Below, in pieces: positions 1,599-51,515 of a DNA stretch of 64,000 bases. A program made the position numbers and the translations under genes. This stretch comes from Patiria pectinifera (Eukaryota; Echinodermata; Asteroidea; Valvatida; Asterinidae). How positions within the stretch are numbered: the first letter of the stretch is position 1; the number at the start of each line of letters is the position of its first letter. A model generated the notes under the pieces. The model did no database searches and was not told the DNA's origin. It saw only the letters and a program-made list of their open reading frames with translations. The stretch spans positions 24,481,430 through 24,545,429 of the forward strand of contig CM057129.1 of assembly GCA_029964075.1 (NCBI GenBank), read 5' to 3'.

Positions 1599-1627
1599 GT
1601 AAGTCAGACCCAATCTCTTTAGAGGTC

Positions 1628-1806
1628 TAAAGCCCGGTTCATAATCGGCGTGAAAGCGAAAGCGAACGCAAATTTGTGACGTCGTGGCAAGTATTCGCGC
1701 TGCGAATTCGCAAAAGTTGAACACATTTCAACTCGGGCGAATTACGCAGCCATGACGTCACATTCGCTTTGCATTCGCATTCGCGTGAAGTATGAACCGG
1801 GCTTTA
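1628..1806. mobile_element. TA-flanked MITE with AAGCCCGGTTCATA ends
   Basis: The ends are perfect inverted copies of AAGCCCGGTTCATA, flanked by TA on both sides (1628-1629 and 1805-1806). Subterminal ATTCGC/GCGAAT words repeat inside. The layout is that of a Tc1/mariner-type non-autonomous element. It sits 30 bases inside the intron after the exon at 1413-1598. Confidence 0.75.
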
Positions 1807-1939
1807 TGCGTTAAAGTGGAACCAGGGGGCAGTGGTTTTGTATCACCAGGATAGTTATGAACAAACCTTTTGTGCTTTGATTTTTAGTAATTCGAAATAT
1901 TAAAGAATACCCTCAGAGACACTCGCAACGCATAAGGTC

Positions 1940-2130
1940 TACAGTCGACTCTCGTTAGTACAAACTCTGTTAATACAAAATTCTGGTTATAACAAACATA
2001 AAGCCTTGGTCCCAACTGTGCATTTATGTGCACAATAAATGGGACTGATGTTTCTCTTAAAACAAAATTCTGATATAACAAACAATTTAGCTAGGTCCGA
2101 AAAAGTTTGTTATAACGAGAGTCGACTGTA
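1940..2130. mobile_element. Pogo/Tigger-like MITE, copy 1
   Basis: The termini are CAGTCGACTCTCGTTA and its inverse (CGAGAGTCGACTG), flanked by TA. The interior carries repeated ACAAAATTCTG and TATAACAAAC words. Ends beginning CAG with TA duplication are typical of pogo/Tigger elements; no transposase remains. Confidence 0.75.
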
Positions 2131-2187
2131 TTTGTTTGTGAGGTTAAACTTTGATGTGCAATTGACAGAAAAAACACGGAATAGATG

Positions 2188-2378
2188 TGCAGTCGACTCC
2201 CGTTAATACAAACTCAGCTGGACATACCCAAAATGTTTGTTATATCAGAATGTTTGTATTAAGAGGACCGATGGTCGCATTCATTGTGCACATAAATTCA
2301 GTCGGGACCTTAAGGCCTTTTGTTTGTTATAACCAGAATTTGTATTAACAGTGTTTGTATTAATGAAAGTCGACTGTA
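2188..2378. mobile_element. Pogo/Tigger-like MITE, copy 2 (opposite orientation)
   Basis: A diverged copy of the element at 1940-2130 in inverse orientation, with termini CAGTCGACTCCCGTTA and AAAGTCGACTG and the same TTATAACCAGAATTTGTATT interior. The two copies lie 57 bases apart, so they could pair into a larger hairpin. Confidence 0.72.
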
Positions 2379-4370
2379 CCACATTGGATCCATAGGGTGG
2401 TCAAAAATTAATGGTCATCGTTATTGCAGTTCTTTGTGCGTGCTATTGTATTGCGCTTTGACAAACTTGTTTTTGACCATTTTTCTGTAAATGGCTGCCA
2501 TTTCTTAATGTAGCCTTTATTTTCAACGGTGTTTTTACCATATACCACCAAGATCTTATAGTGTAGGAATATCTTCAAACAATTTCAGCATTTCTCCCCA
2601 ATTTTGAGAAATCTGCGTCTGAATAAACGTAAAAAAATACCACCCCATAGTTTGATGTTGTACTAAAAGGCAGTGTAATGAAAGCAGTGTACATGTAGCT
2701 CTGGTTGAAATCTACTTTCTTGTGTCTGTAAGGTCTTGCTGAGGCCTTAACTGGTCAAACATAAACAGGACACTGTGTCGCTTAAAGTTACACTGTGAAA
2801 TGTATAGCAACTCTTCTTTCAAGGCAACAGTCAGCAGAGAAATGCTTTGCAGTTTTATTTGTGTTGAGTAACATGTGCATGGAGTCCACATTTTATCCTC
2901 AATAGCTTCTATGCTTCAGTCTGAAATTGTATTGCTATTGACATTTGCATGAATATGAAAAAAAAACCTAGAGCTAAATAACAAAACGTTATACCAACAC
3001 ACGTTTTTTGTTTTTTGTTTTTCAAAAAAACGTTATGTTTTACTTTGCATAGAGAGGTATACATTGTATTGAAACATGTTTTTGTTGTTATTTACAGATT
3101 AGGGAAAATCTTATTTACATCTACATAAATAATATTAATGGAATATTAAATCAATTTGTATCAATGCATAGAAACACTAAAGGTATATCTGAAAGGTACA
3201 CTACCAGGGCAATTCCACCGTCACTCACATTACTATACCATGAGGCTACTTTGACTTCTCACTGCTTTAAAAGTATTTGATCTAGCTGAATCAAACCAGC
3301 CATACAGCAACCTTAGGGTAGTTGTGTACTCAGAAATGGAAAGAAAAGTTCAGTCCATTCATTCACATTACAAAAAAAAAGGCATGGACAATTTTCATGC
3401 AATTTTGTTGTTAAAGTCTCCTCAAACTGTAGTCTGCAACACAGAAGTAACATTGTTTTACCTTTCATTCAACCCATAGCTAGATATAAAAGCCCATTTT
3501 GAATCAATTTAGTGTGTATTTTAGATGCAACTTGCAGGGACATTAGATTACAGGGAGGTACCGTCACTCACGTTACGTCACTCACGTTACTTCCTCTTCA
3601 TGGTTTCTAACACGGCATAAAATCTGAATTTGATGAACTGCACCATAATGGAACTATTTTCTTATAATATATTAACCTTTCTCTCTGCCTTAAACACAAA
3701 AAGTCACAATAACACTCACATTTTGCATGTTAAAACAAGATGCCATAATGACTACCAAAAGTCCATGATTTTAGCCAAAAACAGGTTGTTGTTTTTTTTA
3801 CCCCAAATGACACTTAACTACATTCCATGTCATTGGCACATCACTCAAATGAAAGATCTTGTTGTCCCCTTTAATTTGACACCACGTTTATTGATGTGAT
3901 GTTTGTAGTTTGGAAGATTTCTTACATTTTCCACTTTTGCGTGGAATTGCCCAGCAACTGGAAATGTATCAAATTGATTTGAAAATCAAATGTGTCAGCT
4001 TAGGTGTATAGTAATCATGAAATGTGAAACGAATTGGCTCAATCATGTTAATAAGCTGAATAAATAGGTCCCAAGTTGCCTTGTACGTTTGCTCCTCTCG
4101 CACTATTGGCTGTCATTTTTTTCAACAACTCTCCCATTGCTGTCAACAGAGGGCCTCCTTCAGGTTCACAGAGCCATAGATAGAGTTGCGCAACAAGCCT
4201 TTCACGGACACGTAATGGCTTCTAATTTCATTCCGTCATGATCAGTGGCATGCACTCATCAGTACACGCGTGACACGTACATTGTAGCATCCATTTTGTG
4301 TCTGGAAATTTCGACAGATGTTGTCACAACTTCAGCTCTGGTTTCTGAGCTCTCATTAAATGAAATCATA
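2379..4370. other. Long non-coding intronic stretch
   Basis: No exon, RNA gene or convincing transposon boundary was found. The region is AT-rich with poly(A)/poly(T) runs (near 2958 and 3371). A short direct repeat CGTCACTCACGTTAC occurs at 3560-3592. The open frames present are short and have no coding character. Confidence 0.45.
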
Positions 4371-4892
4371 TTAAAGGAAATATACAACATTTGCAAACAT
4401 CAAAAAATAAAACTACCAAATCATTTTGAAATACCTTGCTGGACTGTTAGTGAATGACAGTGTAAAGCATCCTGTAAAATCATGGCACCTGGTATACTGT
4501 CATTTTCAAGGAAAGTGGTATTTTTGTATCAATTTCCAACGCTGATCGGCTGATCAGCGTTGGAAAAAACTGGCTTTTTTTCAAATACTGGCCCCAGTTG
4601 ACCATCGCACTTGTTTGCAATCGATTACACACCTATGAACGTGTACAAGCCAGCTAGACTGGTTCCCTGACCTTACAATTCCCCAATATATGTAAACTGC
4701 TCTGTTTCTTTTTAAATGGAGTCAGGGAACCAGACTACAGGAAAATGATCTTTTTTCTTGGTTTTTATAGCATTTTCGAACCCAAAACCTCAAAAAAGTG
4801 AGTGTAACTATATTTGCTATATATTTCCAACTTCCCAATTCCGTTCATTTCTGAAAATTACAGCAAAAGCAAATGATGTATATTCCCTTTAA
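4371..4892. mobile_element. TTAA-flanked MITE, subfamily 2, copy 1
   Basis: The element begins TTAAAGGAAATATACAACAT and ends with the inverse of TTAAAGGGAATATACATCAT, so a TTAA duplication and roughly 24-base inverted ends are visible. It is closely similar to 54643-55163 over its whole 520 bases. Inside is a near-perfect palindrome (CCAACGCTGATC and its inverse, about 4536-4563) and a nested hairpin with arms TAGACTGGTTCCCTGAC / GTCAGGGAACCAGACTA (about 4657-4740). TTAA targets indicate piggyBac-type mobilisation; no protein is encoded. Confidence 0.85.
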
Positions 4893-6174
4893 CATGTAAC
4901 AAAGGAAAATCCGCTAACTTAATAAAGTTATAATTTTGCTTTTAGGATTAATACATGTACATTTGTATCTGAATTTCAGATAGAAATATGGATGTACATG
5001 TACACTACAACTTTGTCTTTTTACAACATTTACAATTTCAAAATATATTTACATATGGTCTAACTTGTATGCTCTGATTTAAAAATCAAATCAATACAAA
5101 ATATTAATTTTAGTAATAAATACATGTAACTGCAGAGGGTGTGTTTCGCCTTACCCATTCCAACTCATATTTTACTTTTTAAATCAGTAATTTCAGAGAA
5201 ATTAATTTGTCCATTAACCAAATGCACACTCAAGTGCAGGAGTTTTTTTCCTCCAAAAGTTTTCACAAAGTAGATTTATGACCTGAAAAGGTTACTGCTG
5301 AGAAAAGTTTTACTGTGACACAACCAAGGCAAAACAGGCTAATGATGGGTCTGGAATGGTTGCACATGTTTACATTTGTAATAAAAATCCTAACCCTGGC
5401 CTGGATTATTTGTATAATATGCTGGTATTTTTTCCCCCTGGATGAACTCCTACATTCCTTGTAAGAGTGTAGGGGCTTCTCTTTAAGTCATAAATCTGCC
5501 GTGGCTTGGCTCCACAAGCATCTTAGAATTCCTCCTCCAAGCAACATGACCCCAAGAGATGTTTGGATTGTGCCGAATGTTCAGAGCAAGACCGTGACCT
5601 GCACACAGTAACTCAATTGTTAAACCCACTTTCAAAGTTTTTTGAAACCTGGTCATAGGTTTTAGTTTGTACTTGAATTGTGGCTTTGCCCCGTTCTGAT
5701 CTCTATTACCCTCTTAGAGAGGGTTAGATCTTGCACTTAGAACATTGTAGCAAACGACACTGAATGCCGAAGGGTCTGTTTTTGTACAATCTCTTGTCTC
5801 GTCTCGTGGATTTACATGGATTTGGAGTTTCAGTCTGGTTGGGTGTGGTTCCTCGTGGACTTTGTACTTTTTTTTGGAGACTTTTACTTTGGGTAGCCAA
5901 AATGCTCGTATTGCATTTTTATTTTTGCAAAGTTAAATATTCATCATAAGCAGTTTGACATTTAACTGCCAAAAAACTGCCCATCTATTTGACTAAATTA
6001 CCCAAAACCAAATGCCTGACAATGTTGGTGATATGTACAATGACAACAATGACAAAAAGGTCTGTTTCCTGGAAGATGAAAGGGAAGACATTTGTAAACA
6101 TATTTTTTCTTCAAATGTTTCTTCAAGAATTTTTCACCCATCAAAAATAATACATGTATAAGATTTTCCGGTGA
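4893..6174. other. Non-coding intronic stretch
   Basis: No exon was recognised. The open frame near 5764-5949 lacks coding character and flanking splice logic. The region is AT-rich with several TACATGTA words of the sort common throughout the window. Confidence 0.45.
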
Positions 6175-6180
6175 TTTATT
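6175..6180 (-). terminator. Probable poly(A) signal of the 326-residue collagen-C1q gene
   Basis: TTTATT on the plus strand reads AATAAA on the minus strand, about 75 bases after the stop codon at 6255. Confidence 0.5.
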
Positions 6181-6254
6181 AAAGATTTTACATTTAAAAA
6201 AAAAAGTATTAAGTATTTTATAAAGTAGTAAGTATTTTTTTTATAGATTTCTGA

Positions 6255-7235
6255 CTAAAGATTGTAAAGCATGTAACCCGAGAGCCAAAAGTCCATATTC
6301 TCAAAGTAGACCTTTGATAATTCAATTCTCAACCATATTTGATCTCCGGCTCGACAGTCCTTGATAGCCAATAGGAAGCCTGACCCTGTGATCAGAGGGC
6401 TGTAATTATGCATCATCTGAAACCGTCCACCGATATAATTAGTGGCGATCTGCAGCACATAGGTCCCTGACTCCCCAATGGTGTACCGAGACACCTCGTG
6501 GTCAAAGTACCCGCCTATGTTGGTCACGGTGTTGTAGTCGATTCGGAAGGTTCCTGCACTGTGAGACATGATGTTCCTAACCATGAACTCGGCTTTCGGC
6601 AAGCCAGGACCAGGCGTTCCCCGATCACCAGTGTAGCCCTTTTTACCCTGTTCCCCCTGAGGCCCCTTAGGCCCTACTCCAGTTGGTCCAATCCTGCCTT
6701 TGGGTCCCACAGGGCCAGGTTCCCCCCTATCTCCAGACAGACCCTTTCTACCCTTCCGCCTGGTCCCGTTCTCCCCTTTCACTCCCTCCATGCCAATAAT
6801 CCCTTTAGACCCACGGAACCCTTTCAGCCCAATTTCTCCGACTTCCCCAGGATCTCCCTTGAATCCTTTCTCTCCTTTATAACCCGGATCGCCACCTGGC
6901 CCTGTTCTCCCTAATGGACCTCTTGGTCCAAGCAACCCTGCCTGGCCCCGAGGCCCCATCTCGCCTGGATCTCCCTTAATCCCTGCCGGTCCTGGCTCCC
7001 CTTTTGAGCCTCTCTCTCCATCCCTACGCTGTCCCTTCTCTCCCTGTCTGCCTGGCATCCCCCTCCGTCCTGGGTAACCAGGGAAACCGTCCACGCCAGG
7101 CATCCCTGCTTCACCGGGGCAACAGATGTCGGATGAGTTTTGATCTCTTGATGCGGACTCCGTCTCTGTTGGTCTGTCTGAGAGCAGAAGAAGCAGGAGT
7201 AATGAAATGATGAAAAGATTATTGGTTCCCTCCAT
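6255..7235 (-). CDS. Collagen-like protein with C-terminal C1q domain, 326 residues
   Basis: Predicted secreted trimeric protein of the C1q/TNF-related type. Residues 5-19 form a leucine-rich signal peptide core; CysCys lies at 38-39 just before the helix; Gly-X-Y repeats run from about 40 to 212; a C1q-like domain fills about 215-326. The C1q domain shows the family landmarks: Asn-Ile-Gly-Gly-Tyr-Phe-Asp, Gly-Thr-Tyr-Val-Leu, a GDQIWL strand and a final SGYMLY. It has one Cys inside the domain (AIKDCRAGDQIW), unlike the 999-residue paralogue. The helix has two four-residue breaks, both around Arg-Arg (GQRRDG and GTRRKG), and a one-residue break (GVG) about eight triplets before its end. No introns interrupt the coding region; a good minus-strand acceptor (TTATTATCGTCAG near 7325) suggests a 5' non-coding exon upstream. 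It lies antisense within the presumed intron of the coiled-coil gene. The likely role is extracellular matrix or immune pattern binding; the exact orthologue is unknown. Confidence 0.9.
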   Translation of the reverse strand: MEGTNNLFIISLLLLLLLSDRPTETESASRDQNSSDICCPGEAGMPGVDGFPGYPGRRGMPGRQGEKGQRRDGERGSKGEPGPAGIKGDPGEMGPRGQAGLLGPRGPLGRTGPGGDPGYKGEKGFKGDPGEVGEIGLKGFRGSKGIIGMEGVKGENGTRRKGRKGLSGDRGEPGPVGPKGRIGPTGVGPKGPQGEQGKKGYTGDRGTPGPGLPKAEFMVRNIMSHSAGTFRIDYNTVTNIGGYFDHEVSRYTIGESGTYVLQIATNYIGGRFQMMHNYSPLITGSGFLLAIKDCRAGDQIWLRIELSKVYFENMDFWLSGYMLYNL

Positions 7236-8690
7236 GGTAGATCATCGATATCTTGATCCCTCAGTCTCAGTCTCTCAGCGCAGCTTCCAAATCTTAGACT
7301 TCAGCGATTTGCCACAACTTGTCCTGACGATAATAAGAAAGAAACAGAAACACAAATTAGAAATGGCCAAAACCCTAAAGAAAAACCTGGCAATATTGTT
7401 CCCCCTTCACCAAAAACCTTGCCAAATGTCCAAGATTCCTTCACAAGTTACTTGGCGGTGTTTGAGAAGAACGTGCAACATGTGCCAAAATACCTACCCA
7501 TGTAACAGTGGCATGATTTTACATTCTAATTGTTGGACAAAGCTGTTTTCTGTAGGGACCCATGGTCACAAGAATGTTCAAATTGGGCCCAGGTCGTTAT
7601 AAGACTTCCTCGTGCTCCTTGCCATAATTCATTTTCACCACATGCGGTGTATGATTCAGGCAGGAACATCCCCTCCTGTTCAGGGCCTAACATTCATGTC
7701 ACTGGTGAATGAGCTTGGCAGGCAAGTGTGTCGTGGGTTAGTGGTTTGACACCCAAGGCCAACACTTTCACTTGGTGATTGATTTATAAGAGCCTGCTTT
7801 AAACCACTCTAAACGCTCACTGTTACGACCACACAATGGTAGTCATGTACCAGTACACTGTGTGTTTAAATGAACTTCCTTTTCACATCGTAAAGCGAGC
7901 AAGTCAATCAAGAGCTTAAAAACTGAACTTCATTGCCCCTTGGTTACTTCCAAACTTATGCTTAAAAAAAAACTACTAAAAGTTGCTGATCCCAAGCTTA
8001 AAACATGGAGTTAACTTTTGATTTGGAAAAAGCAAGTAATACAACTGCTGCTGACCCGGGCCCTGCACTAACGAAGACCAACAGCCATGACAAGTGTGCA
8101 GTGAATTTGCATATCATATGAATTACTTCCTGAATTTGGAATAATAGAGCCACACAAATTCAAATGAAACTTTCAACCTCAAGTCAAAAAAAAAAAAAAG
8201 TTCTAGATATCTTGAATAACAAGAGTGTCAACGGGGCTGTTAACCTAATGATGACATCCCCTCAAAAAGTTGGGGCTTAAGGTGAAAATGTATTGAACTC
8301 TCCTCTGGGATAGATGAAATACTTGCTGTCATTTCTGTTTCACAGTGAGCTTATCATGTGCCTGTTGGGAAGCCACATTAAACATGACACGCCACCACAT
8401 TCCTCCATTACCCCTAGGAGTCTGGTGGACTTTAGCAAAGGCTGTGCTCTTATAAGCCTTGAAACCCTTGAGCTTTTAAAACATTCATGTGACTGTCAGC
8501 ACATTGCCATGTGCGCTGTTGGTTTTGTTGTAAGAGATTCAGTCTTGACATTGGAATTCAAGCATTAGTACAGTGTAACTGTGCTTGGGAATAGGAAACG
8601 TGCACTGTACTTAAGATCTGTACATTGATACTTTTTGAAAGTAATGTACACTGTACTATGTATTTAAGACAGGTATTTGAAACTTATTAA
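7236..8690. other. Upstream region of the 326-residue collagen gene, no other gene seen
   Basis: Positions 7236-7325 are probably 5' untranslated sequence preceded by an intron acceptor on the minus strand. The rest is non-coding; CACTGTACTT-type words recur near 8570-8660. Confidence 0.45.
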
Positions 8691-9125
8691 TTAATTTATT
8701 GAACTTGTATGGTGCTCTCTCCAGGACCGCCCTGTTCGAGGGTGCATTACATTAAAATTCCTAATTAAATATGATACAAGTACTGGTATACGAGTATACA
8801 AATACCAGAAGCCATTACAATTACATCAACATTCCAAAATAAAAGTGTAACATACAAGTTTAAATACAGGTACACAGGGAGGTAAACAATAACTTATTAA
8901 CCAATGAGGTTAAGAGCACGTCACACATCACCAAATGCTTTCCAACGAAGGAAAGTTTTCAGTTTAGTTTTGAGCAGACTTTGTGAGTGCGATTTTACAA
9001 ATACCGGTATCAGATGGCAAATTACTCCATAAATTGGGCACAGCTGAAATAAAAGCACGGTTTCCTAATAATGACAGCATTTTGCCCTTTGGATATATTC
9101 CAATAAAACTTCACTTGTAGACCTG
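8691..9125 (-). repeat. Dispersed repeat resembling a retroelement 3' tail
   Basis: The block from the TTAATTTATTGAACTTG start to about 9125, with TCCAACGAAGGAAAGTTTTCAG and AATTACTCCATAAATTGGGCACAGC-like stretches, resembles the common non-LTR/SINE tail sequences of marine invertebrates and is analogous to 12915-13240. Read on the minus strand it keeps a short, broken coding-like pattern. Assignment is tentative. Confidence 0.4.
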
Positions 9126-9130
9126 ATGCT

Positions 9131-9430
9131 ACAGGGGCGGATCCAGAAATTTTCACAGGGGGGGGGGGGGTTTCATCAGCAGAAAAATCTGAAAATGTAC
9201 ACAGGTTTTTTTCTCCGGACACTTGGCCTCCGTAAAATCAAAAACTTGGGGGGGGGGGACACCATATTTCAATAGTAGGCGCTGTTCAAATTCGACGATT
9301 ATTAACACTAGATTACAGAATGATGTACTGTATTTTGAACAGGCGGACATTAAACCAGTATAATTTTTTTGGGGGTGTCACAGGGGGGGTTTCGACTTAT
9401 TTTTCAGGAATTTGTATGATAATTTTTTTT
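9131..9430. repeat. Poly-G-bearing repeat with GGGGCGGATCCAG end
   Basis: It starts with AGGGGCGGATCCAG and contains three G-runs (near 9159, 9249 and 9383). The same terminus, inverted, is visible at 60320-60355 (CCCCGGATCTGCCC). This is probably a non-autonomous DNA transposon; the right boundary is uncertain. Confidence 0.5.
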
Positions 9431-10308
9431 GCCTGAAGCCTTGCTTCGTGCGAGGTCCCGTCAATCTCTGCTGTATATTTTCTTAACTCCAGGAATTTTG
9501 TTTTGTTTTTGTTAGTTTTTGTATTTTACTGAAGTGGATACAAATGTATTTTGACATTTTACCTTGCGATGGAAATAATATCAAGTGAAGTTAATTTAAT
9601 TTGCAAATCTCTTTCATTTCATTCACATTGTCCAAATGGCTAAAGAGAAAACCATGAACAGAATACCAAAACATTATTTTATAGGACCAAGAGAAAGCTA
9701 CCAGTGAGATATAGAGTTAACTCTCTTCTTTACTCTCACAAAAGTGTCATCATTACAAATGTACATGCACTTCACTTCACATTTGCTTTACTCATCATCA
9801 ATAACTTGATGCAACTCTGCCGTCCTTGGAGAAAGTTCTGCAAATGCTTAACATACCCCGCAAAAACATTCCACCGGTTCATCTGCAACAGTTGGTCCGT
9901 TCATTAGCGATAATTGGACCCTAAAAATAACAAGTCAGCGAACTTGGCCTGAACAGTTGTCGGAAACCAGACATCCGGTTTTGAAACTCTGGTACACATT
10001 CATGTCACTGATGAAGCAGGGACGTGCTTGTCACAAGGCTCCACTGGCTGCAAATGCAGAAGACACGCAGTGTTTAGATAACTTAACCCTTGGTAGGTTC
10101 GTGCTAGACAAACAAGGTTAGGGGTGTAGTATTTATACAGTGGTTTATTTGTAAGAGACACCAGGTGTCCTGGTACTGACATGCAATGACAGCTCCTATA
10201 TATGTGAACATGTACATTTTTTATATTTGCTTCCGAAATGCAGAAACCTGTATTGCGTACTTTCACATCCATTATATATACACATACATTTGTACATGTA
10301 CATGTTGA
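9431..10308. other. Non-coding intronic stretch
   Basis: No exon or clear element was recognised; short open frames only. Confidence 0.4.
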
Positions 10309-10848
10309 TTAAAGGTAGAGTACATCATTTGCAGCTATCCAAAAAGTAACTGACGAAAATATTGTTGAAAACCATACTTGCTTTAAAGATAGTAATGGCA
10401 CTAAACTCCCTGTGAATTTACTCTTTCTGGCAAGCTGTCATTTTGAAAAAACAATAACAGAAGATCGTTTCCAGTGATGGGTGTAAAGGCCCATTTTTGG
10501 AAATTTCCGTTAGTAGTTCGTTTTTAATATGGCGAAGCCGTAAATGAGTGCACACAACAGTTGACATGACGCAAACATGCGCGCAGTTGCTACAATTCTT
10601 CGGTTCAGTGTGTGACATCGCGTAGCTGCAATCGGCTGAATGAGAACGTGTCCCGGACGCTGATTTCGGGCGCAGTTCAATACATGACTCGGCAACTTTT
10701 GAATTGAAATCGAGATCCTAGAATATTGTTTTCTCGGAATATACAGCATTCACTCAGCTAAAACTTCATCAACAACCTTCTTTAGATTTCGAGCACTTTT
10801 GTTGCTTCAAACGAAAAATTGCACAAATGACAAATGATCTACTTTTAA
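10309..10848. mobile_element. TTAA-flanked MITE, subfamily 1, copy A
   Basis: 540 bases bounded by TTAA at 10309-10312 and 10845-10848 with inverted ends (TTAAAGGTAGAGTACATCAT against TTAAAAGTAGATCATTTG). The interior matches the copies at 14700, 26187 and 39778: CTTTCTGGCAAGCTGTCATT, TAGTAGTTCGTTTT, ACATCGCGTAGCTGCAATCG, and GCTTCAAAC near the right end. Confidence 0.85.
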
Positions 10849-12914: not shown

Positions 12915-12934
12915 AATAATAATAATAATAACAA

Positions 12935-16760: not shown

Positions 16761-16829
16761 ATTCTTAAAAACGAATAAACATGAATTTTTTAAGGCTCCC
16801 TCCTACAAATTCCTAGTTTGTTGCTGTGA

Positions 16830-24666: not shown

Positions 24667-25722
24667 TCAGTGAGCAGTAACGTACAAGTTGTTGGCAAGG
24701 TACTCAAATTGAATGTGCAGGAGAAATCCGGAGAGATAAAAATGTGATTCGCTGAAGTCGCTGTCCTCAACCATGCTCAGCCAGACTTGGTCGCTCTTCT
24801 GCAGCTCAATCACGATACTGGAGAAGCGTTTGGCAACCACCATGGTCTGGCCGTTCTTCACCAGCTGCAGCTTGCCCTTAAAGTCCGTGGTAAAGTGGAA
24901 GACATAGGTGCCTGGGATCGGAGAGATGAATTTCCCTCTGCCGATGTCAAAGTAGCGTCCGATGTTTGTGATGATGTCAGTGAAGGGGATGATCTCATCT
25001 CGGCCGTGGTTCAAGTCGCCGCTGGATATGAAAGCATGAACCATGAAGGCACACTGCATGAGCTCCGGAGCTGGCAGGCCTGGTTCCCCCTTATACCCCC
25101 TGTTACCGGGTAACCCTTTAGGCCCTTGTTTACCCACGCCTTGGGGTCCCTGAGGACCCTGTAAACCCAGCAAACCTCTGTCGCCTCGCCTTCCCTTGGT
25201 CCCAGTGATTCCTCTTTCACCGGGCTCACCACGCTGTCCTTTCGAACCCTTATTCCCTTGTACCCCTTGTACACCCTTAGGACCCGTCGGCCCCTGGTCA
25301 CCTTTCTCACCCGTGTCCCCAAGGTCACCTCTCTCCCCTTTTTCACCCAAATCTCCTTTCAGGCCTGTATTTCCGGGCAAACCTCTTGGTCCCAGTTTTC
25401 CGAAGAAGCCTTTAGCTCCTCTGGAACCATTGTTGCCTTTTGGTCCCATCTCCCCCACCAGTCCCGGTTCCCCCTTATACCCGATATCCCCTGGGTCACC
25501 TCGTGGCCCCCTCTTGCCAGGTTTACCGTCTTCGCCGTGTGACCCCGGGGCACCCGGGGTGCCCGGTATCCCGGCCGGTCCCGAGCAACATGCATCGCAG
25601 AAAGTTTTATCAGTGATCAAGGATGCCGACCCAGCATCGTTAAGCGATGCCAAGAACAGAACACCAAGTCCAACGATGATCGCTTTCCAAATTCCCATCC
25701 TTGCTCCTTCAAGTCCTTCCAA
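24667..25722 (-). CDS. Collagen-like protein with C-terminal C1q domain, 351 residues
   Basis: Paralogue of the genes at 6255 and 46781. The first Met is used here, but Met9 (25698) directly precedes the hydrophobic signal segment (residues 12-26, IWKAIIVGLGVLFLASL) and may be the true start. A CysAspAlaCysCys motif lies at 42-46, Gly-X-Y repeats run from about 48 to 217, and a C1q-like domain spans about 223-340 followed by a short tail. C1q landmarks are ITNIGRYFD, GTYVFHF, SDQVWL and LSGFLL. The helix is unusually regular, with a single-residue break (GVG) seven triplets before its end. Charged KGE/RGD-type triplets are abundant. The coding region has no introns; a minus-strand acceptor (TTCTGTCACAG, near 25830) suggests a 5' non-coding exon. 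It is likely a secreted trimer; the ligand is unknown. Confidence 0.9.
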   Translation of the reverse strand: MEGLEGARMGIWKAIIVGLGVLFLASLNDAGSASLITDKTFCDACCSGPAGIPGTPGAPGSHGEDGKPGKRGPRGDPGDIGYKGEPGLVGEMGPKGNNGSRGAKGFFGKLGPRGLPGNTGLKGDLGEKGERGDLGDTGEKGDQGPTGPKGVQGVQGNKGSKGQRGEPGERGITGTKGRRGDRGLLGLQGPQGPQGVGKQGPKGLPGNRGYKGEPGLPAPELMQCAFMVHAFISSGDLNHGRDEIIPFTDIITNIGRYFDIGRGKFISPIPGTYVFHFTTDFKGKLQLVKNGQTMVVAKRFSSIVIELQKSDQVWLSMVEDSDFSESHFYLSGFLLHIQFEYLANNLYVTAH

Positions 25723-26186
25723 ATGTCACTCCTCCTTTCTGATTGGCTCGTTGAAGGAATCCTAGCCTTGGGATTGGTCAGTTTATGCCATCCGTAGTTG
25801 CCGAAGCATTCAAAGTGTGTTTGATCCTGTGACAGAACAATGGAAACAGACACAGTGAGTTGATTGGTTTGAATTTTCTTACGAGAGAAAATTACTGAGG
25901 ACTTGTGGGTAACCATCAAATTCAAATCTGGCCCAAACAGGTCTTTTTCGTCCAAAGTCTTGATTGTCAGAGTTTTTGAATCTATCAGCATCATGTCTGT
26001 TTCCATTGCTATTTGCAGGGTCACCCACATTCCACATGGCAAATTATAATATTATCTGAAAACATGAGGACACCATTATTTGCAGAGTTATACAAATTCA
26101 CTAATTGTTAATCACTATTCCTAAATAATGAAGACGTAAGTTATGTTTTCCCTCATTTGTGATGATCGTCCCGAATATTCAAATGT
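25723..26186. other. 5' region of the 351-residue collagen gene
   Basis: Between the start codon and about 25828 lies probable 5' untranslated sequence with two inverted CCAAT boxes (TGATTGGC, GGATTGGT). An intron acceptor on the minus strand precedes it. The rest is non-coding. Confidence 0.4.
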
Positions 26187-40278: not shown

Positions 40279-40344
40279 ACAATTAGACCAATACAAAAGC
40301 CCTGCCCCATGGTGTTCTGCTCATTACAGCTGTATTTTGTGTCC

Positions 40345-40432
40345 GACTGGATTGGGGGACCCCCAAATAACTCAGTTGGTAGATCCCCGTAACTGCAAGC
40401 CGGAGGTTGCAGGTTCAAAACCCGGCTCCAGT
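40345..40432 (+). repeat. tRNA-like SINE head
   Basis: AACTCAGTTGGTAGATCCC resembles an A-box region and GCAGGTTCAAAACCCGGC a B-box, about 40 bases apart. It does not fold into a convincing complete tRNA. Confidence 0.5.
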
Positions 40433-41294: not shown

Positions 41295-41681
41295 TTAGGC
41301 CAAAAAAAAAAATAAGTCGGTCTCTGGTCAGCGCGAGCGTCGATTTTAATCATGCGCGTCGATCTTTTTTTTTCCCAAAATGTTCCGCGGTAGCTCCAAC
41401 AGCGCCCTCTATTTCCGCACCTCCTCAATTTTTTTTACCAAAGAGCACCAAGGAATGGGAAATTGCACCAAGGCAAATGATCGAAAGCACCAAGGCAAAT
41501 TATGGAGGACAGCAATGTACACAAGGACACCAAAACAGCAAAATAGTACCCCACCTTGTCTGTACAATCCAAGCTTGAAGAAAAAAAAAGAAAAGCCAAA
41601 AAAAAAAAAAAAGAAAGCCGCGTGGCCGCGTCAATTCCGGGACTTTTGTCTGACCAGAGAACGATTTTTTTTTTGGCCTTA
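41295..41681. mobile_element. PIF/Harbinger-like MITE with TTA duplication
   Basis: Element 41298-41678 has ends GGCC followed by an A-run and, inside, TCTCTGGTCAG; both are inverted at the right end (CTGACCAGAGA then T-run then GGCC). TTA flanks both sides. Three-base TTA/TAA duplications are the PIF/Harbinger habit. Confidence 0.75.
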
Positions 41682-43180
41682 TTCCACATGTTTTTTTACC
41701 CCATGAACTGTAACAGGTGTTTTTGTTCAGCTAACAAATCTGGAGGGGGGCAATGATCAATGGCCCATCTCTCCCCCCCCCCCCATCAAACAGTGTGTGA
41801 GGAGGATGTATCCTCCCCATCTCCATGGATATATGCCTGTGAACACCATCATGACTTTATAAGCACTAGGGCCTATATCCTACACATCAGAGCCAACGTT
41901 GAAACGGATGCTCTCTCAAATAACGCCCTCTGTTGTGGACTGAGTGGCAAGGGGCAAGCTCCATCTCTTTCCTGTAGCTACAGTGGCGTGACTAACTTCC
42001 TCAATACATTCAACCTAGGAGACGTCTCCAAGAATGTGTCCGTGAAAACATGCACACAGACACACATGCATTATGAATACTGAAAGCCAGTGTGTGTGAA
42101 TACTAAGAAAACCCGTGGTGTTGTTAAAATGGGATTAAAGGGGATTTTATTTTTATGAGAGGTTTCAAAATCACTTAAACATTTACATGTACATTAGATG
42201 TGAGAGTGGACTTAAACTTGCAAACCCTGTGCTCTTCAACAAATTCAATTTTATTTTCTCTATTACTTTTCAACTTTTATCTCTTATTCCAACCAAAAAA
42301 ACTGCAACCCTCAGAGAAAAAAATTATTTTGTTTTGGGCACAAACAGATCCAATTTGCGAGCAAACAGGTCCGTTCATTATCGAAACTGATCGTGGGGTG
42401 AGAACCTTAACCTATACCCCGTTTGAATAACTTTTGTAAAACTCAAAAATGCCAATTTAGAAGGGGAATCTATTTTTCGGGATGAAGCAAGAAATATAGA
42501 GGGGGGTCGCATCTTTATATCAGGACTGCTTCCTGCCATGATGGACTTTGACATTAGGTCAAGTTTAATTAAATGTCAACCTTCTCAGACATAAATACAA
42601 CATAGCATATTCTTATAGCCTGGCCAATCTCGCTTTGTACATATGTATATGAAAAGCTGGAAGGCCATTTCCTGTGCTCACATGAGGACAGGTTCCCAGT
42701 CTATTGCCAATTACAGTCAATTGGTTGACTCGATAGATCGACTATTTAGAACCAACCTACTGGGGTTGGTTGCTTAGCCTGATAACGCGCGCCGCGATAA
42801 CGTACAGCAGAGACAGGAGGATCCATACGCGCAATGACATTTTTTTTTCAGTGCTCGACTAGAGACGTTCACACTTTGCTATAGTGCAGGCGGCGTAAGG
42901 TACGTCACAAATCAACCAATAACTCAGTCTATAAGGTAACCTGGGCATCAAGGACATGCAGCCAATCAAATTCACTCATTCCCTGACCTTATCCTGAGTT
43001 GAGGTCAGTTAAGCCTCAGGTCATGTGGTCTACTTCATCCCCTGGAGAGGAAACAGCAGGAGGTTAATGACTGTAATTGATATGTGGCACTAAATCCCTC
43101 ATGTAGCATGTAGGTTTACATGTAGGCTGATGTTCACCATTACATTGTAGGCTGATGTTCAACACGAAACAGACATATAT
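41682..43180. other. Non-coding with dispersed repeat
   Basis: 42205-42495 is homologous to 51909-52325 (shared CTTCAACAAATTCAATTTT, TTGGACACAAACAGATC-type and GGAATCTATTTTTCGGGATG blocks). A C-run lies at 41771-41781. No exon was accepted. Confidence 0.5.
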
Positions 43181-43258
43181 TTGTTTCAAAATACCATCCA
43201 CATTACATTGCCAGTAATTGTATACCGGCAATGTAATGTGGACTGTACTTTGAAGCAA
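43181..43258. ncRNA. miRNA-precursor-like hairpin (candidate)
   Basis: Arms 43181-43212 and 43227-43258 pair at 28 of 32 positions plus one G-U, around a 14-base loop (AGTAATTGTATACC). The innermost 16 pairs (TCCACATTACATTGCC) are uninterrupted. Size and loop fit an animal pre-miRNA, but a tiny palindromic transposon remnant would look the same. Confidence 0.35.
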
Positions 43259-43398
43259 ATAAGACCAGTTACCTTTTACTTCAGAGATACTGATGGTGTC
43301 CGGCTTGATCAGTGACTTCAGATGTTCTGATTGGTGCACAAAGTGTGGAGAAATGTGTGTAATTTCCCCATGGACTAATTGTTAGTTCATCATACCTG

Positions 43399-43897
43399 TA
43401 CAGTGGAACGCCGCTATAACGAACACCGTGGGATCCACACAAATTGTTCATAATAGCGATCGTTCGGTATAGCAGTTTTAAGGTGGCGATGCTCCGGTAC
43501 TCACTTTTAAATAAATAGCGCTCTTCAGAACCTCACCCTGCACGCCCCGGTATGGGGTCCGTGTGCCAACAAAAGAGGGCGCCCTTTTACAAGATGGTGT
43601 CGGTCGGTCACCCCCAACTGTTCCTTCTTCGCTAGTGAGGGGGTACTTGTGAACGGAAGACTTTGAACTCATCCCGACAATTGAATTATGTAATTACATA
43701 ATTTTTGAGCTTACTACCTACGGCGATAGGTGGCTTTACCCTTCTATTCCTTGGGGAAATGATAGCCACTTTCTGTTTATATTTTTCAACCACAATGTTC
43801 AGTACGTTTTGTACACAATAATCGGGAGCCAAAGACGATGTTCGGTATAGCCGAATGTTTGTTATAGCGGTGTTCGGTATAGAGACATTCCACTGTA
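43399..43897. mobile_element. Pogo/Tigger-like non-autonomous element
   Basis: TA-flanked, with ends CAGTGGAACGCCGCTATAAC and the inverse of CAGTGGAATGTCTCTATACC. GTTCGGTATAG words repeat subterminally. CAGTGGAAC-type ends with TA duplication are typical of Tigger. Its 499 bases contain no transposase frame. Confidence 0.82.
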
Positions 43898-45488
43898 CCT
43901 CAAACACTTTCATGGTGTGCTGTGCTGGAATCCAACATTTCCAACACGAGAACAAATCTGTTAACCAGTTCATGTTGGAGGACGTGATAACATGCACTGG
44001 CTGTTATCATACACACTTACACTGCAGGCACGGCTGACATGTTAAAACGTCAAGATTGCCTCGACTCACCTCCAGGTGACGTCTTAACACGCTAATCCCT
44101 CGTGCCTTTTGTACACACACACACAAAGTCCATGAAGTCTGTGGAGGCAGACTGCAGGTTGATCTTGAATTGGCAGTTGTCTACGGCCTATTGTTCAACA
44201 ATCTACGCTCCAGTGCACACCTCTGAGTATTGAAACACATGAGGTTTTGGCAAGAAATATTGTACAAATACTATTGACATGACTCTTGCGAATCAGTTTT
44301 TGTGGCGTTTGGCTGTGTATCAGAAGTTGGCTGAAAAATTTTGCCTTTTGCGAAAATCAAAATTTTCAGCTATAATAATCTTGGTGCAAAGTGGTTAAAT
44401 GTGTAACCTTTTTGCTTTGCTTTTTTTTTAATAAAATAATTTATTTTAGAGGATTGTTATAGCATATATTGTTAAACTGACTTGTATCATGTTTTGGGCT
44501 TGTAGATGCTGAAAAACAAAAAGAAAACCATCGTGTTCTTGTAGTCTGGTTCCTCCCCCCCTTAAGATGAAACAAAGCAATTAATACACTTTAAGGGGTG
44601 TAAGGTCAGAGAATCAGTCTAGCAAGCTTGCCCTTTCTTCATGTGTGTGATCAAATTGCAAAAAAAGAGAGAATAAAAAAAGTGAAAAAAAAAAGTTAAG
44701 AACAGTGAAAAGTAAAAGTTCCAATGCTGGCTGGTGGCCGAGCCAGTTTGAAAAATACAGTTTCTTTTGAAAATGTCAGCACCGTTGGATAAATTTGTGA
44801 ACAAAATTCATAACTGCAGTTCTTTTTGAAAGCTTTATAGATTTTTCTGCATTGCTAGAAAATAGGAAATTGTAAAGTGTTCACAAAGTGATCCGTCGGA
44901 TACAAGCTCCAAGAGCGATTATGAATAGCAAACTACTTCCCCAGCAAATAAACAAAATGTTTGAAATCTTTCTCAATTGAATGGCAAATTTCAAAGTTCT
45001 GAGGTATCAAAGACAGGGGAAATTCCACATTTATCATAAAATGATCTATACATCGCCTGCATGTAGGCAACTGAGCAGCACACTTATGAATATGGCCCAA
45101 AGTACAAATAGTTTCATCTGATTGGAAACAAACTTTTCAGTTTTGGGTGGCTGTCGGTGGCCATAATAAGTTTTTGAATTCAGCATGGCTGCTGCTTAAC
45201 ACTATGGTCAGTGTAAAGGGTTAGTGGTACGTTCTCCTGCTTGTACATTTGGTTCCCAAAAATGTTATTTGGAAGTGATACACAAAGTATGTAAGCATAT
45301 TTAGATAAATCACAAAAAATTACAAATACAAGAATTCATTGCAAGGTCGTAATTTCAAAACAGTTTATTTTAAAAATATGTCTACATTCATTCATGCACA
45401 CCATATTTTGGATTAACGTGTACAATTGTGATAAAGATATGCATACAAATATTGTTCATTGTTAAAGAATCCTTAACAGTGGGTGATG
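43898..45488. other. Non-coding with short hairpin element
   Basis: 44540-44622 has TGTAGTCTGGTTCC and AGAATCAGTCTAGCA at its ends, related to the hairpin nested in the MITE at 4371. A CA microsatellite lies at 44115-44125. No exon was found. Confidence 0.45.
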
Positions 45489-46373
45489 TAGAGTTGTAAC
45501 GAGTCACTGAATTTTGTGACTCGAGTCAAATCGAGTCATTTTAAGGAAGTGACTCGAGTCGAGTCCAGTCATTAGGTCAACAAGGTCGAGTTAAGTCAAG
45601 TTAAGTCGAGTCGAGTCACAGTGTGGTCGAGTCAAATTTATGCTTGAGTCCATTCAAGTCTCTGATATTTGAGCACCATCTTATAAAGTAAAGAATGGAA
45701 TTAGGAACACAAAGACATGTAAATATGCTGCATGGTACCCAATAGACAGTTTCTGCTGGACGTTTCTACCAAAGATCTACGTTACGGTTAACAAGAAGTG
45801 AAAGTTCGGTTTTATCTCTGGTTTGGCTTCGGGTCTGAAATAGTTTGTATGCTGACAACGTCAAACCAAATTGCAACATACGAAACTCTTTCTGATTAAC
45901 TGATTATATAGAAAATATCAAATTATTTTTTGAAAGCGGGACATGCATTTTACCGGAGTTCTATCAAGGGCTTAAAAAAATCGGCAAAAGTCGATGATGA
46001 AACCAAGAATTAGGAAATGTGTTACACATCTGTTTCCGGGAAAGTATTTTGTGTGTTACATTATAAAACCATGAGTTTGGAGTCCGTGATACAGTGTATA
46101 TTTGTACGCAATACACAGCCACAACTTGACGGTAACGCGAACATAATAAAAATTTGTGCCGGTATCACAGTTTTGGGACTTGCGTGTTATGAGCCTTCGA
46201 CTAGAGTCGAGTCTTCGGATGAGGGGACTCGATTCAGGTCGATTCATTTGCTTGCAGTGATCAAGTCAAGTCAGTTACCCATTCGGACTCGAGTCGAGTC
46301 AAGTCACGTCACCAAAAATTGTGACTCAAGTCGGACTCAAGTCGAGTTTTGGACTCGAGTCATTACAACTCTG
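45489..46373. mobile_element. hAT-like element rich in GACTCGAGTC words
   Basis: Termini are (C/T)AGAGTTGTAACGAGTC and the inverse of CAGAGTTGTAATGACTC. About 150-170 bases inside each end are packed with GAGTC, CTCGAGTC and AAGTCGAGTC words in both orientations, while the centre (about 45670-46190) is ordinary AT-rich sequence. Flanking 8-mers agree at only five of eight positions, so the hAT assignment rests on the ends. Confidence 0.7.
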
Positions 46374-46514
46374 TGATAATGCTCCTTTCTAAATAGAAAG
46401 GGCATTGACTTTAACTTCCTTTTTTTTCCTTTAAAAAGCATGTAGTAAAAATTGCAGAAATTGATTTTTTTTTAATGTTGTAGGAGCCTCCCACCCTCTG
46501 CAAGCTGTGACAAG

Positions 46515-46520
46515 TTTATT
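46515..46520 (-). terminator. Possible poly(A) signal of the 999-residue collagen gene
   Basis: TTTATT on the plus strand reads AATAAA on the minus strand, about 260 bases beyond the stop codon. Confidence 0.35.
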
Positions 46521-46780
46521 CATGATCATTTGAAAATGCCTGTGATGAGTCAATATTACTTCACAAAAAAAAACCAAGTTGTTTAAGATATATTAAAAGC
46601 TTATGTACAAAAAAGAGAAACCTCCATTTTGTGGTAAAACAAGTTGAATATCAACCGATAAAATATAATTTAGAAACCTACATATTTTTTACCTACATCC
46701 TTAACATCAGTAGCAGTTTGCAGTAATTTAAATCTTTTTTTCAACGTGTATCCTACGTGAGAATTTTCAACTGCAGTCTG

Positions 46781-49780
46781 TTAAGAAACATAGAGGAGAA
46801 ACCCACTGAAGTTAACAGCCAATGCTTGAGGCATTCCATCTGTGGTCATCTCCAACCACACCTGATCATCAACGTCCAGCTGAACTGCAGCCATCGCTGA
46901 CCGCTCTGTGGACATCAACTCAATAGATGCCCCCTTCTTGACCAGTTTCAGAAGCCCCTCCCCGTACTCAAGATTGAACTGGAACACATACGTTCCGGCT
47001 GTTGAGGTGGTGAAGGCATCACCTTGGAAGTGCCCCCCAACATTGGAGACAACAACAGCAAACGGCACCCGTTGATTATTGAGATCCACTCTGTTGTGAT
47101 AGTACCTTGCCGTGAAGGCAGATTGGCGGTAGGGAGCTATGGCCACTGATTTTCCAGGCTCTCCTGGAATTCCAGGAGGTCCTATGATACCAATCCCAGG
47201 GGACCCAGAAGGCCCTCCATCTCCTTTGGCTCCAACATCACCTGATTCCCCCTTTTCTCCCTTCTCACCCGTTGGCCCAGTTAACCCTGGTAACCCTGTT
47301 TGACCTTGTGCTCCTTTGACCCCCTCTAGACCCCATATTCCTCTCTGTCCTTTCGCTCCTGGTTCACCAATTTCCCCTTTCTCACCCATCTCCCCATCAG
47401 TACCCTGTTCCCCCTTGACACCTTTTTTTCCACTCCCTTTTGGGCCGGGGGCTCCTGGAGGTCCCTCTGTCCCATTGTTGCCTTTTTCTCCAGTAATACC
47501 CATCTCCCCCATTTCCCCTTTCTGTCCATTGTTCCCCTTTGTACCATTAACACCTTGCATCCCAAGGGATCCCATATCCCCCTTGATCCCATCAACGCCT
47601 GGTTCTCCCTTATCCCCCTTTTCTCCTGCAGGACCTGTAAGCCCTGGATTACCGATGTATCCTCTCAACCCCATAGGTCCAACCATCCCTATGTCTCCTT
47701 TGAAACCCAGCTCACCTTTTAACCCCTTAATACCCGGATCTCCTTTATCTCCCTTATCCCCCATGTCACCCATGAATCCTGTTAATCCTTTTTGCCCAGC
47801 TTCACCCTTCTCACCCTTCTCTGCATCTACTCCATCCTTTCCTGGTTCCCCTTTAGGTCCTGTGGGTCCACCAGCTGGCCCAACGTCACCCTTGCTACCT
47901 TTCGGTCCAGGACCACCGGGGCCCCCAATCTCGCCCTTCAAACCCCATTTCCCAATCGCTCCTTGCACTCCAGGATCTCCTTTCTCACCATTGTCACCTT
48001 GTACCCCTCTTGGTCCTACGTCACCCTTCACCCCTTGTGGGCCTATGGGGCCTGCAGGACCAGGGGGTCCTTCTGGGCCTTGATTACCTTTTGGTCCATT
48101 TGTACCCCATAACCCAGGAGGTCCCTGCTTACCCCTCCCTCCCCTATCCCCCTTGTCTCCCTTAGCACCATGTTCACCCCATTGCCCCTCTTCACCCTTT
48201 TCACCCATTGGTCCCTGTATCCCCATTAACCCAGGCTCCCCTTCTTTTCCTGGCACTCCAACAGGCCCAATATCCCCCTTTTTTCCAGCATGTGCCTGTT
48301 CCCCCTTTGCACCCTTTTGGCCAACAATCCCCACAGACCCCTTATCTCCAGGTGGCCCCCTTGGTCCTGCGATACCTCTCATCCCTTTCTCTCCACTTGG
48401 TCCAATCGGCCCTTGATCACCCTTTGACCCATTCACCCCTTGCAACCCCATCTCCCCTTTAGACCCGATAGTACCATTCTCACCTTTGGCACCTGTATCA
48501 CCCACCATTCCCTTTGCTCCTTGTTCCCCCTTCAACCCTGGTTTTCCATTTTCACCATTTGACCCAGGAATACCCATTTCTCCGACCTCTCCTTTCTGAC
48601 CTTTGTCCCCGTTCTCCCCCCTACTTCCATTTAAACCAGGCTTTCCAATCTCCCCGAGTGGTCCAAGTTCCCCAGGAGCCCCTTTTACCCCTTGTATACC
48701 CTGTTCCCCGGGTAAACCCCTCTCGCCCTGTGATCCTTTCATCCCATCCTCTCCCTTCAATCCTGGATCCCCCTTGGTCCCTCTTGGCCCTGTTTCACCT
48801 TGAGAACCAGATGCGCCTGTCATCCCAGCTGGTCCTGTGTCACCCCTCTCCCCTTTGTCTCCCTTCACCCCATTCCTTCCGGTCGGTCCCTGTTTCCCAG
48901 GTTCTGCATCGGTTCCATTACTTCCCTTTTCTCCTTTCAGGCCTGGCTCACCTCGCAGTCCCTTGGACCCTTCCCGCATCAACTCAAGTTCTTCAGGACT
49001 CGTCAACTGTCCCTGTAGTCCTAGTGTGCTTACAAAACTGACAGGTCCTCTCTCTCCTTTCTCTCCTTTTTGCCCCATCGGTCCAGGTCTCCCGACTTCA
49101 CCAGGCTCTCCTGTAACGTTGGGAGGAGCAGGTCTCCCATCGATCCCTCTTTCTCCTTTGTTCCCTTTGATGCCTCGGTTCCCTTTATTTCCAAGATCAC
49201 CTTTACCCCCCTTCTGGCCAGGCATTCCTTGAGGTCCTGGCTCTCCTACAGGGCCCACTGGTCCAGGCCAACCTTGATTCCCAGGAGCACCTTTGTCTCC
49301 AACAGCCCCTTCAGGTCCTGGAGGCCCAATCAATCCTCTTGGACCAGCGTCTCCAACAAGCCCTCTTGGTCCAACCACAGTCACACTGTCACCCTTCTCA
49401 CCTTTCTCCCCTTTTCCACCGTCAACACCATCCTGTCCTCTGACCCCAGGAGGTCCAACAATGCCTTGCTCTCCTCTCAATCCATCTCGTCCGTGGAAGC
49501 CGTCTCGCCCGGCATTTCCGGGCATTCCAGGCAGGCCTGCTGCACCGGGAGATCCTTGACAGCAGGGATTACATTGTTGATCGTTGTGCTTTGCGCTTGA
49601 CTCTGTGAAGATACCATCTGAAGAAGTAGTCATGTAACTCGGTGCGGGAGTGGCCAAATTTGTCTTTTCTGTCTTGTTAGCTGAAGAGTTTCCGATGTTG
49701 ATGATGGCAAAGCCGACAATAAGCAATGTTGATCGTGTAATGAGATTTTCAGAAGTGACCATGTTGATGAGGAACCACAT
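46781..49780 (-). CDS. Long collagen with C-terminal C1q domain, 999 residues
   Basis: Single uninterrupted frame. Residues 15-30 are hydrophobic (STLLIVGFAIINIG): a signal peptide or signal anchor, followed by a Ser/Thr-rich linker with NSS and NKT glycosylation sites and a Cys-Asn-Pro-Cys-Cys motif at 70-74. The Gly-X-Y region runs from 76 to about 873, close to fibrillar-collagen scale. Interruptions include DSVTVV (about 131-136), a Pro-rich patch with an NVT site (216-223), a helix-free insert of about 25 residues (246-270, containing TSPEELELMREG), and a GIG break five triplets before the end. The last 113 residues form a C1q-like domain (VVSNVGGHF, GTYVFQF, DDQVWLEM, FSGFLLYV) without Cys. 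There is no fibrillar C-propeptide, so it is a C1q-family rather than fibrillar collagen; the C1q domain would nucleate trimers. It is a paralogue of the genes at 6255 and 24667 but nearly three times longer. Confidence 0.92.
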   Translation of the reverse strand: MWFLINMVTSENLITRSTLLIVGFAIINIGNSSANKTEKTNLATPAPSYMTTSSDGIFTESSAKHNDQQCNPCCQGSPGAAGLPGMPGNAGRDGFHGRDGLRGEQGIVGPPGVRGQDGVDGGKGEKGEKGDSVTVVGPRGLVGDAGPRGLIGPPGPEGAVGDKGAPGNQGWPGPVGPVGEPGPQGMPGQKGGKGDLGNKGNRGIKGNKGERGIDGRPAPPNVTGEPGEVGRPGPMGQKGEKGERGPVSFVSTLGLQGQLTSPEELELMREGSKGLRGEPGLKGEKGSNGTDAEPGKQGPTGRNGVKGDKGERGDTGPAGMTGASGSQGETGPRGTKGDPGLKGEDGMKGSQGERGLPGEQGIQGVKGAPGELGPLGEIGKPGLNGSRGENGDKGQKGEVGEMGIPGSNGENGKPGLKGEQGAKGMVGDTGAKGENGTIGSKGEMGLQGVNGSKGDQGPIGPSGEKGMRGIAGPRGPPGDKGSVGIVGQKGAKGEQAHAGKKGDIGPVGVPGKEGEPGLMGIQGPMGEKGEEGQWGEHGAKGDKGDRGGRGKQGPPGLWGTNGPKGNQGPEGPPGPAGPIGPQGVKGDVGPRGVQGDNGEKGDPGVQGAIGKWGLKGEIGGPGGPGPKGSKGDVGPAGGPTGPKGEPGKDGVDAEKGEKGEAGQKGLTGFMGDMGDKGDKGDPGIKGLKGELGFKGDIGMVGPMGLRGYIGNPGLTGPAGEKGDKGEPGVDGIKGDMGSLGMQGVNGTKGNNGQKGEMGEMGITGEKGNNGTEGPPGAPGPKGSGKKGVKGEQGTDGEMGEKGEIGEPGAKGQRGIWGLEGVKGAQGQTGLPGLTGPTGEKGEKGESGDVGAKGDGGPSGSPGIGIIGPPGIPGEPGKSVAIAPYRQSAFTARYYHNRVDLNNQRVPFAVVVSNVGGHFQGDAFTTSTAGTYVFQFNLEYGEGLLKLVKKGASIELMSTERSAMAAVQLDVDDQVWLEMTTDGMPQALAVNFSGFLLYVS

Positions 49781-51515
49781 CAGCTGCTTGGTATATCCGA
49801 TAGTATACGGCTAAATTATTCAAAATGGGGGAAAAAATGCCATCTCTCATTATAAAAAAAGGTAGAAAGGTGTTGCAATAGTCTGTAGCTTTTCTACTGA
49901 TAACAAAAACATGTGTTTGTCTCTAGCTTGAGAACTTGTAAGTCAAATTTCATCAAATTCATCATTTAGTGAAAAAACACCTGAAAATAAATACCACTGT
50001 GGCATAAGGTTGCAGATAGATGCTAATAGACCCAGAATTCCCTACGTGGGCCAATTCACAAATTGCATGCCCTCAAATTCTCAGGTATTAGCACATTTTG
50101 TGGGCCGTGAGCTTTAGGATTTGTAAAAAAGAAGGGTGAAAGCGGCATAGAGGAAGCTCACATTTCTGTGAAATTTGGATGAAATTAGGCCCTAAATTGG
50201 CTCTATTTTGCAATAGAGCAAAGGCGTCAAGTTTCAAAATTGCGATGGGCTTCAGGACTGCTTTTATGGGTCATCATCTTTGCAGTGAATTTTCTCCAAA
50301 AAGTCATCGGTTAACCCTCCAAAAAAGAACAGCAAATGAAAGATGATGAAATAAACTTTTAATTTGATGGTTGTCTCACACACCTTTGAGACTTGTGAGT
50401 ATTTGTAATAATTTTTGGAAGTACGTGGGAGTCAATTTGCAGGTCTGCACCCGTAAGAACTTCCAAGCTTCTTACCTTTTGCACCGGTTGTCCTCTGATT
50501 CAAGTAGCCAGTTCTTCCTTAGCTTAAAAAGTACTCCTAAGTGCCTGTGTCATGTCTTGAAGATCGTTGAGAAAAGTGCAAGTACTGCAGAGCATCTGAC
50601 TAGTCTAGTGTAGTAGTTGACTGTCTAGGCCAATGACCTGCCCTTCCAGAAACACACCCCTCTGGGTTTCAGCATGCAGACTTTGAACCAAATCCAAAAG
50701 CAGGCCCATTAATTAAAATAAAAAAATCCAACCCATAGGTAAAACAAGGATTTGTGTTTTAAATCACAAGAACCACTTTTCAAAACTGTCTGCTTGTAAA
50801 AAAATAATATGGTTCATATGTTTATTTTGCATAAATTTGCATAATTGTTTGAGGATGTATAGTGGGGGAGGTGACCTTTAATTTCCTGCAACACGCAGCA
50901 CCTTACAAATGCCCTTCAGGGCAGTTTCCTGCCGATATATAAGCTAAGTTGGTGTCGGGGTGAACTCCCTCCAGGAAGGAAACACTTGGGCTACAACTTC
51001 CTTGATTTGGGAGACAAGAAAGTCAGGTTCAGTCTGCTCACATGAGTCGAGGAAGTCGCTGCAATCTTTGGATGCCACAACCTCTTGGCATTTTGCCTGA
51101 GTTTTCTCTAACTATACCATGCTTAAAACTGATTTCGAAGTTTTCAGTGGATAAACATTCATGGTAATTGATTTGTGTGATATCAGTCATTATTTGCGGT
51201 CAATATTTTTGTAAAAATTTAGTCAGCAAAAATGTGAAGAGTTGTTGCCATATACTTAGCAGTGAAAAACATGATGGTTATTTGATGAGATGTCAAAGCC
51301 TGCCTTTAGCTTTACAAATTAAACTTTTAAGAACTGTGTTAGGCTTGGCTTCATTTCAAAGATAACAATACATAGACACTAACAGAGTTAGCTCTGTTGA
51401 ATTATTTTCAATGTTCAATCCCAAAAAAAAGTTTCTGGGGAATTTTCATTTTGATGAAATTCACAAATTTGAGATATAGCATAAAAATATTCTTGGGTGT
51501 ATTTCCCTGCATTAG
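49781..51515. other. Non-coding intronic stretch
   Basis: Nothing recognisable except the acceptor at its right end. No clear promoter element of the minus-strand collagen gene was identified. Confidence 0.45.

Follow-up and report, generated by a model that had tools for sequence, protein, structure and literature searches.

A cluster of three antisense collagen-C1q genes within a 50-kb intron of a probable centlein gene in the starfish Patiria pectinifera

The window (i.e., the whole 64-kb stretch of Patiria pectinifera DNA that was analyzed) contains a cluster of three collagen-C1q genes on the minus strand, placed between two plus-strand coiled-coil coding exons (Table 1). The initial annotation had described these exons as sharing a phase and reading on from one to the other. 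This was confirmed by canonical splice signals at both intron borders, by the phase (phase 0 in both exons), and by the 49,917-bp stretch between them, which is free of gaps. The sole assembly gap in the window (59594-60093; exactly 500 N) lies outside the host intron. Approximately 15% of the host intron matches flanking sequence and 10% matches itself; thus, repeats do not explain its length. Scans of the window for tRNAs and for Rfam families (at the gathering thresholds) found none, and none of ten open frames of the host intron exceeded a Pfam cut-off (one gave a weak KilA-N match; E = 0.014). A short sequence that contains GTCGACT and TTGTTATAAC words recurs at positions ~1940 to 2390 as imperfect inverted copies, noted by eye, which resemble a small mobile element.

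TABLE 1 Features of the locus, in window positions (negative positions denote fetched sequence upstream of window position 1)
Feature	Position	Strand	Description
Host exon upstream of the window	-182..-3	+	Part of the joined host protein
Host (centlein-like) coding exon	1413-1598	+	186 nt, phase 0, ..ttttccag/GTG...AAG/gtaagt; upstream intron border
Host intron	1599-51515	+	49,917 bp, no N; three nested genes within
Nested gene 1	6255-7235	-	Signal-like start; CC motif; collagen of 55 Gly-X-Y triplets; C1q domain (divergent); 326 aa counted from first Met
Acceptor-like site, gene 1	7324-7348	-	88 nt before ATG; score 7.45 (crude home-made score)
Nested gene 2	24667-25698	-	CxxCC motif; collagen of 56 Gly-X-Y triplets; C1q domain; 343 aa counted from first Met
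Acceptor-like site, gene 2	25827-25851	-	128 nt before ATG; score 7.15 (same crude score)
Nested gene 3	46781-49780	-	CxxCC motif; collagen of 252 Gly-X-Y triplets; C1q domain; 999 aa counted from first Met
Host coding exon	51516-51722	+	207 nt, phase 0, ..tgcattag/GGT...AAG/gtaagg; downstream intron border
Host coding exon	52498-52575	+	26 codons; splice signals, translation, alignment to the centlein query
Candidate host terminal coding exon with stop codon	56068-56160	+	30 aa; within joined-protein alignment
Rhodopsin-type GPCR frame	61497-62435	-	7tm_1 E = 1.4e-39, profile positions 1-189 of 260; last helices outside frame

The nested genes occupy intact minus-strand open frames, which extend from stop to stop over positions 6255-7241 (328 aa), 24667-25725 (352 aa), and 46781-49810 (1009 aa). 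The Pfam Collagen model scored above its cut-off in genes 1, 2, and 3 (E = 6.7e-24, 1.5e-28, and 1.7e-115, respectively). The Pfam C1q model did so in genes 2 (E = 1.3e-13) and 3 (E = 3.7e-9) and fell below its cut-off in gene 1 (E = 0.52). The gene 1 domain is C1q-like by its predicted fold (mean pLDDT, 78), for which the first PDB matches were cerebellin-1 and C1QTNF5 (E = 2e-6 to 4e-6). The gene 2 domain matched complement C1q, cerebellin, and adiponectin chains by sequence (best E = 1.5e-14). All three genes therefore exhibit the collagenous C1q architecture of the C1q/TNF superfamily (i.e., Gly-X-Y repeats with a C-terminal C1q domain, recognized in gene 1 by fold only), and the earlier description of three complete, antisense, coding-intronless collagen-C1q genes between the exons holds with that proviso. 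When the three proteins were searched against the window (tblastn, E up to 0.1), all rows fell inside the three genes, including weak ones from other reading frames of these genes (E = 0.006 to 0.1). By sequence, the predicted products of the nested genes have hydrophobic starts; they would be secreted, probably as trimers.

The collagen of each of the three genes, with triplets counted in runs of at least 4, is longer than that of each of 31 other collagen-bearing loci (17 to 47 triplets), and the triplets of gene 3 fall in 10 such runs. The gene 3 frame is the longest among the matches listed in two large searches of the starfish's own genome (150 of 292 and 150 of 234 candidates scored; exons unjoined), followed by frames of 491 aa (which holds N) and 401 aa. 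C1q domains are greatly expanded in this genome, as noted at many places on G000:C1 (0.1 to 11.7 Mb); at least 150 matches were scored, and the window's own contig holds many of these. On contig C22, two loci located ~337 kb apart on opposite strands (L002 and L003) have identical C1q domains and represent either a recent duplication or an assembly duplicate.

The two exons that border the intron most likely belong to one gene, centlein (CNTLN). As a query, we used an uncurated vertebrate centlein sequence, not a database entry, and as a target the window together with 180 kb of flanking sequence. Eight stretches of the query gave collinear plus-strand matches between -18522 and 51869, with E values from 1.9e-9 (best) to 0.38 (weakest). 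The search gave ten rows, and the two remaining ones (E = 9.5 and 12) were out of order and were read as chance; the best match of the control, a reversed query, had an E value of 12. The window exons had been seen before the centlein query was written down, while the upstream exons had not been displayed beforehand, apart from short chance flank matches. A host protein joined from five exons (-182..-3, 1413-1598, 51516-51722, 52498-52575, and 56068-56160) was aligned with the centlein query; in this two-sequence comparison, the alignment covers 239 residues at 33% identity (E = 1e-37) and is ungapped at the 1598/51516 junction. Exon 1413-1598, which had no row of its own in the tblastn search, aligns within this joined protein. 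Measured against the centlein query, collinearity extends to the C terminus, and the whole coding regions of the three nested genes lie between two coding exons of this one host.

The terminal exon was chosen by eye among 29 mechanical candidates for its likeness to the C terminus of the centlein query, and the other 28 were dropped as unlike it. With the frame completed by this candidate exon, the host would stop short of the receptor gene (61.5 to 62.4 kb). The query before its residue 111 found no match in the window and the 180 kb of flanking sequence, and the 5' part of the host is thus unplaced. No curated Pfam family model reached its cut-off for the host. A Relaxase_C match on the joined host exons (E = 3.4e-4; 21.3 bits) was rejected as falling under the Pfam cut-off of 30, and spike-derived chains returned by a PDB search with the same exons (E = 0.28 and 0.3) were dismissed as chance coiled-coil matches.

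If exons 1413-1598 and 51516-51722 were parts of two separate plus-strand genes, the collagen genes would be merely intergenic. In favor of this, the intron is 3.9 times as long as the largest of the other gaps separating matched parts of the host (501 to 12,685 bases; some of these gaps may hide undetected exons). However, the joined protein is collinear with one known protein and ungapped across the junction, the phases of the two exons match, and the intron frames scanned with Pfam, 5 of the 10 being on the plus strand, gave nothing over cut-off. We consider two genes very improbable, and the single-gene status that the initial annotation had offered as an inference is supported by the collinearity with centlein, with the splice itself predicted. 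A different question is whether two or three collagen-C1q genes reached this intron separately. Domain identity is low (29% between genes 1 and 2; 36% between genes 2 and 3), and genes 1 and 3 have no direct match to each other at an E value of 0.1. Gene 2 scores slightly higher against an outside locus (C1:1253968; 41.0 bits) than against gene 1 (39.4 bits), and the highest plain identities of genes 2 and 3 in the alignment used for the tree are with outside loci (36% to L049 and 34% to L035, respectively). On the other hand, gene 2 is the best match of both of its neighbors, being the sole other genomic match of gene 1 at an E value of 0.1 or less and the best other match of gene 3 (E = 2.6e-10; next, 0.0014), and gene 3 is in turn the best other match of gene 2. 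When placed in a tree together with 32 further C1q domains from the same genome (loci drawn from top matches, not at random, and without vertebrate sequences), the three window genes group at 97/91. The remaining window genes stayed together when gene 1 (93/75), gene 3 (99/91), or gene 2 (97/87) was left out, and all three did so without four long outside rows (94/76). Genes 1 and 3 sit on very long branches, and the tree program warns of long-branch joins; therefore, the grouping reflects likely, not certain, kinship. Since the three genes group in the trees, and given their shared strand and long collagen, a single nesting followed by local duplication is likely and separate entries are quite unlikely.

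The initial annotation had suggested an ancestral insertion, perhaps by retroposition, followed by local duplication; the duplication stands as likely, and retroposition is not supported as the cause of the intronless coding regions. That explanation would have a spliced collagen-C1q mRNA reverse-transcribed into the centlein intron, where it became a gene and then duplicated, and single-exon coding regions are what it predicts. However, collagen and C1q lie in one frame at 31 of 32 other loci of this genome chosen from top matches (all 12 distinct loci of a first set outside the window and 19 of 20 loci of a second set, with C1q alone at L045; L034 repeats L008, and the window's own L027 to L030 were left out of the count). 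Among the 18 tree rows that lie closest to the window genes, 17 carry collagen, all 17 with a start codon in the same frame. A DNA-level copy of such a locus gives the same result as a retrocopy. A processed retrogene lacks introns that its parent family has in the coding region, and the nested genes do not show this contrast; having one coding exon is usual among their nearest relatives, so that retroposition is not needed. At the 17 loci, an AG ends 0 or 1 base ahead of the start codon (by eye), suggesting that in the nearest family an intron of the 5' UTR directly precedes the ATG; a crude acceptor score reached 5 in 11 of the 31 loci with collagen. At 7 of these 31 loci, no signal-like Met in frame turned up in a crude scan; thus, some relatives may have a short extra first coding exon, a point in favor of retroposition. 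Acceptor-like sites also precede genes 1 and 2 (Table 1; sites scoring 7 or more are expected 0.17 times per 600 nt scanned), while the 5' leader of gene 3 has no strong one. As the host's own four acceptors score from 0.1 (the one at 51516) to 7.25 on this crude scale, these sites are a weak hint of a 5' UTR intron, one that speaks against a retrocopy. Flanking direct repeats of 14 nt were found at 0 of 3 genes, of 12 nt at 1 of 3, and of 11 nt at 2 of 3; random intron spots had a 12-mer in 26.5% and an 11-mer in 73% of cases, and the gene flanks are not above this background. The 3' flanks were read by eye only for a poly-A remnant, and an ancient event would have lost such marks. Retroposition is, in our judgment, unlikely.

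The preferred reading is that of a starfish centlein-like gene carrying a nested tandem trio that arose by one entry and subsequent duplication and that encodes separate secreted trimeric products (probability of the whole reading, roughly 0.85). A gene of the large collagen-C1q family, with closest relatives that were already single-exon in their coding regions, would have entered the 49.9-kb intron between the fourth-last and third-last coding exons of the host. It would then have been duplicated locally on the minus strand, and the copies would have diverged. The host transcript would be spliced across the nested cluster, within which the three genes are most likely transcribed as separate units. 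In each product, the C1q head would start trimer assembly and the collagen part would form a rod. A far-reaching extension, which we regard as a long shot, is that an echinoderm collagen VIII/X-like system has its regulatory home in the centlein intron and that this home is old and conserved. Gene 3 would then be a long network-type collagen accompanied by two short partners; shared intronic enhancers would keep the three together, and their transcription would occur at times or places other than those of the host.

Such a clean nested tandem cluster makes the age of the nesting, interference with the host, and co-regulation testable in an echinoderm. The locus further corrects the natural inference that single-exon nested genes are retrocopies; they need not be if their nearest family is single-exon. 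C1q/TNF-related proteins combine a short collagen part with a C1q domain, and genes 1 and 2 are likened to them. The layout of gene 3 (252 triplets and a C-terminal C1q domain) suggests a starfish counterpart in form to the short-chain network collagens VIII and X, which also join a long collagen to a C-terminal C1q domain (PMC10381214); gene 3 differs in its several collagen interruptions, and the likeness is one of layout. Section 2.1.3 of the same review of the echinoderm matrix, which covers network-group collagens, reports collagen IV homologues only, and this layout is absent from it (PMC10381214).

Several known systems resemble the starfish locus in part. A literature search over titles and abstract starts of the best-ranked papers returned no report of this cluster. 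Nested genes typically make up 5 to 10% of all genes (PMC10282587), and in humans ~63% of them are antisense and ~41% are single-exon (PMC3192792). Among echinoderm C1q-domain genes, the crinoid lectin OXYL likewise lacks introns and has several paralogues, but it is described as a 158-aa secreted globular-head C1q protein without a collagen part (PMC6409975). The LRRTM genes in alpha-catenin introns are also antisense and intronless and lie in large introns (~50 to 450 kb in human), whereas each host is described as having a single nested gene and no tandem cluster (PMC3933685). The TipE/Teh cluster, in which several related genes are nested in the last intron of insect CG18675, is similar in that a single intron houses the related genes and the host gene is unrelated to them, conserved, and single-copy (CG18675 span, ~20 to 100 kb), and this nesting is kept in most insects compared (PMC3240667). 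Those genes encode ion-channel subunits and occupy both strands (PMC3240667), in contrast to the starfish trio, which lies entirely on the minus strand. Genes nested within genes, also as clusters, are therefore a known arrangement, of which the starfish locus is a clear further example.
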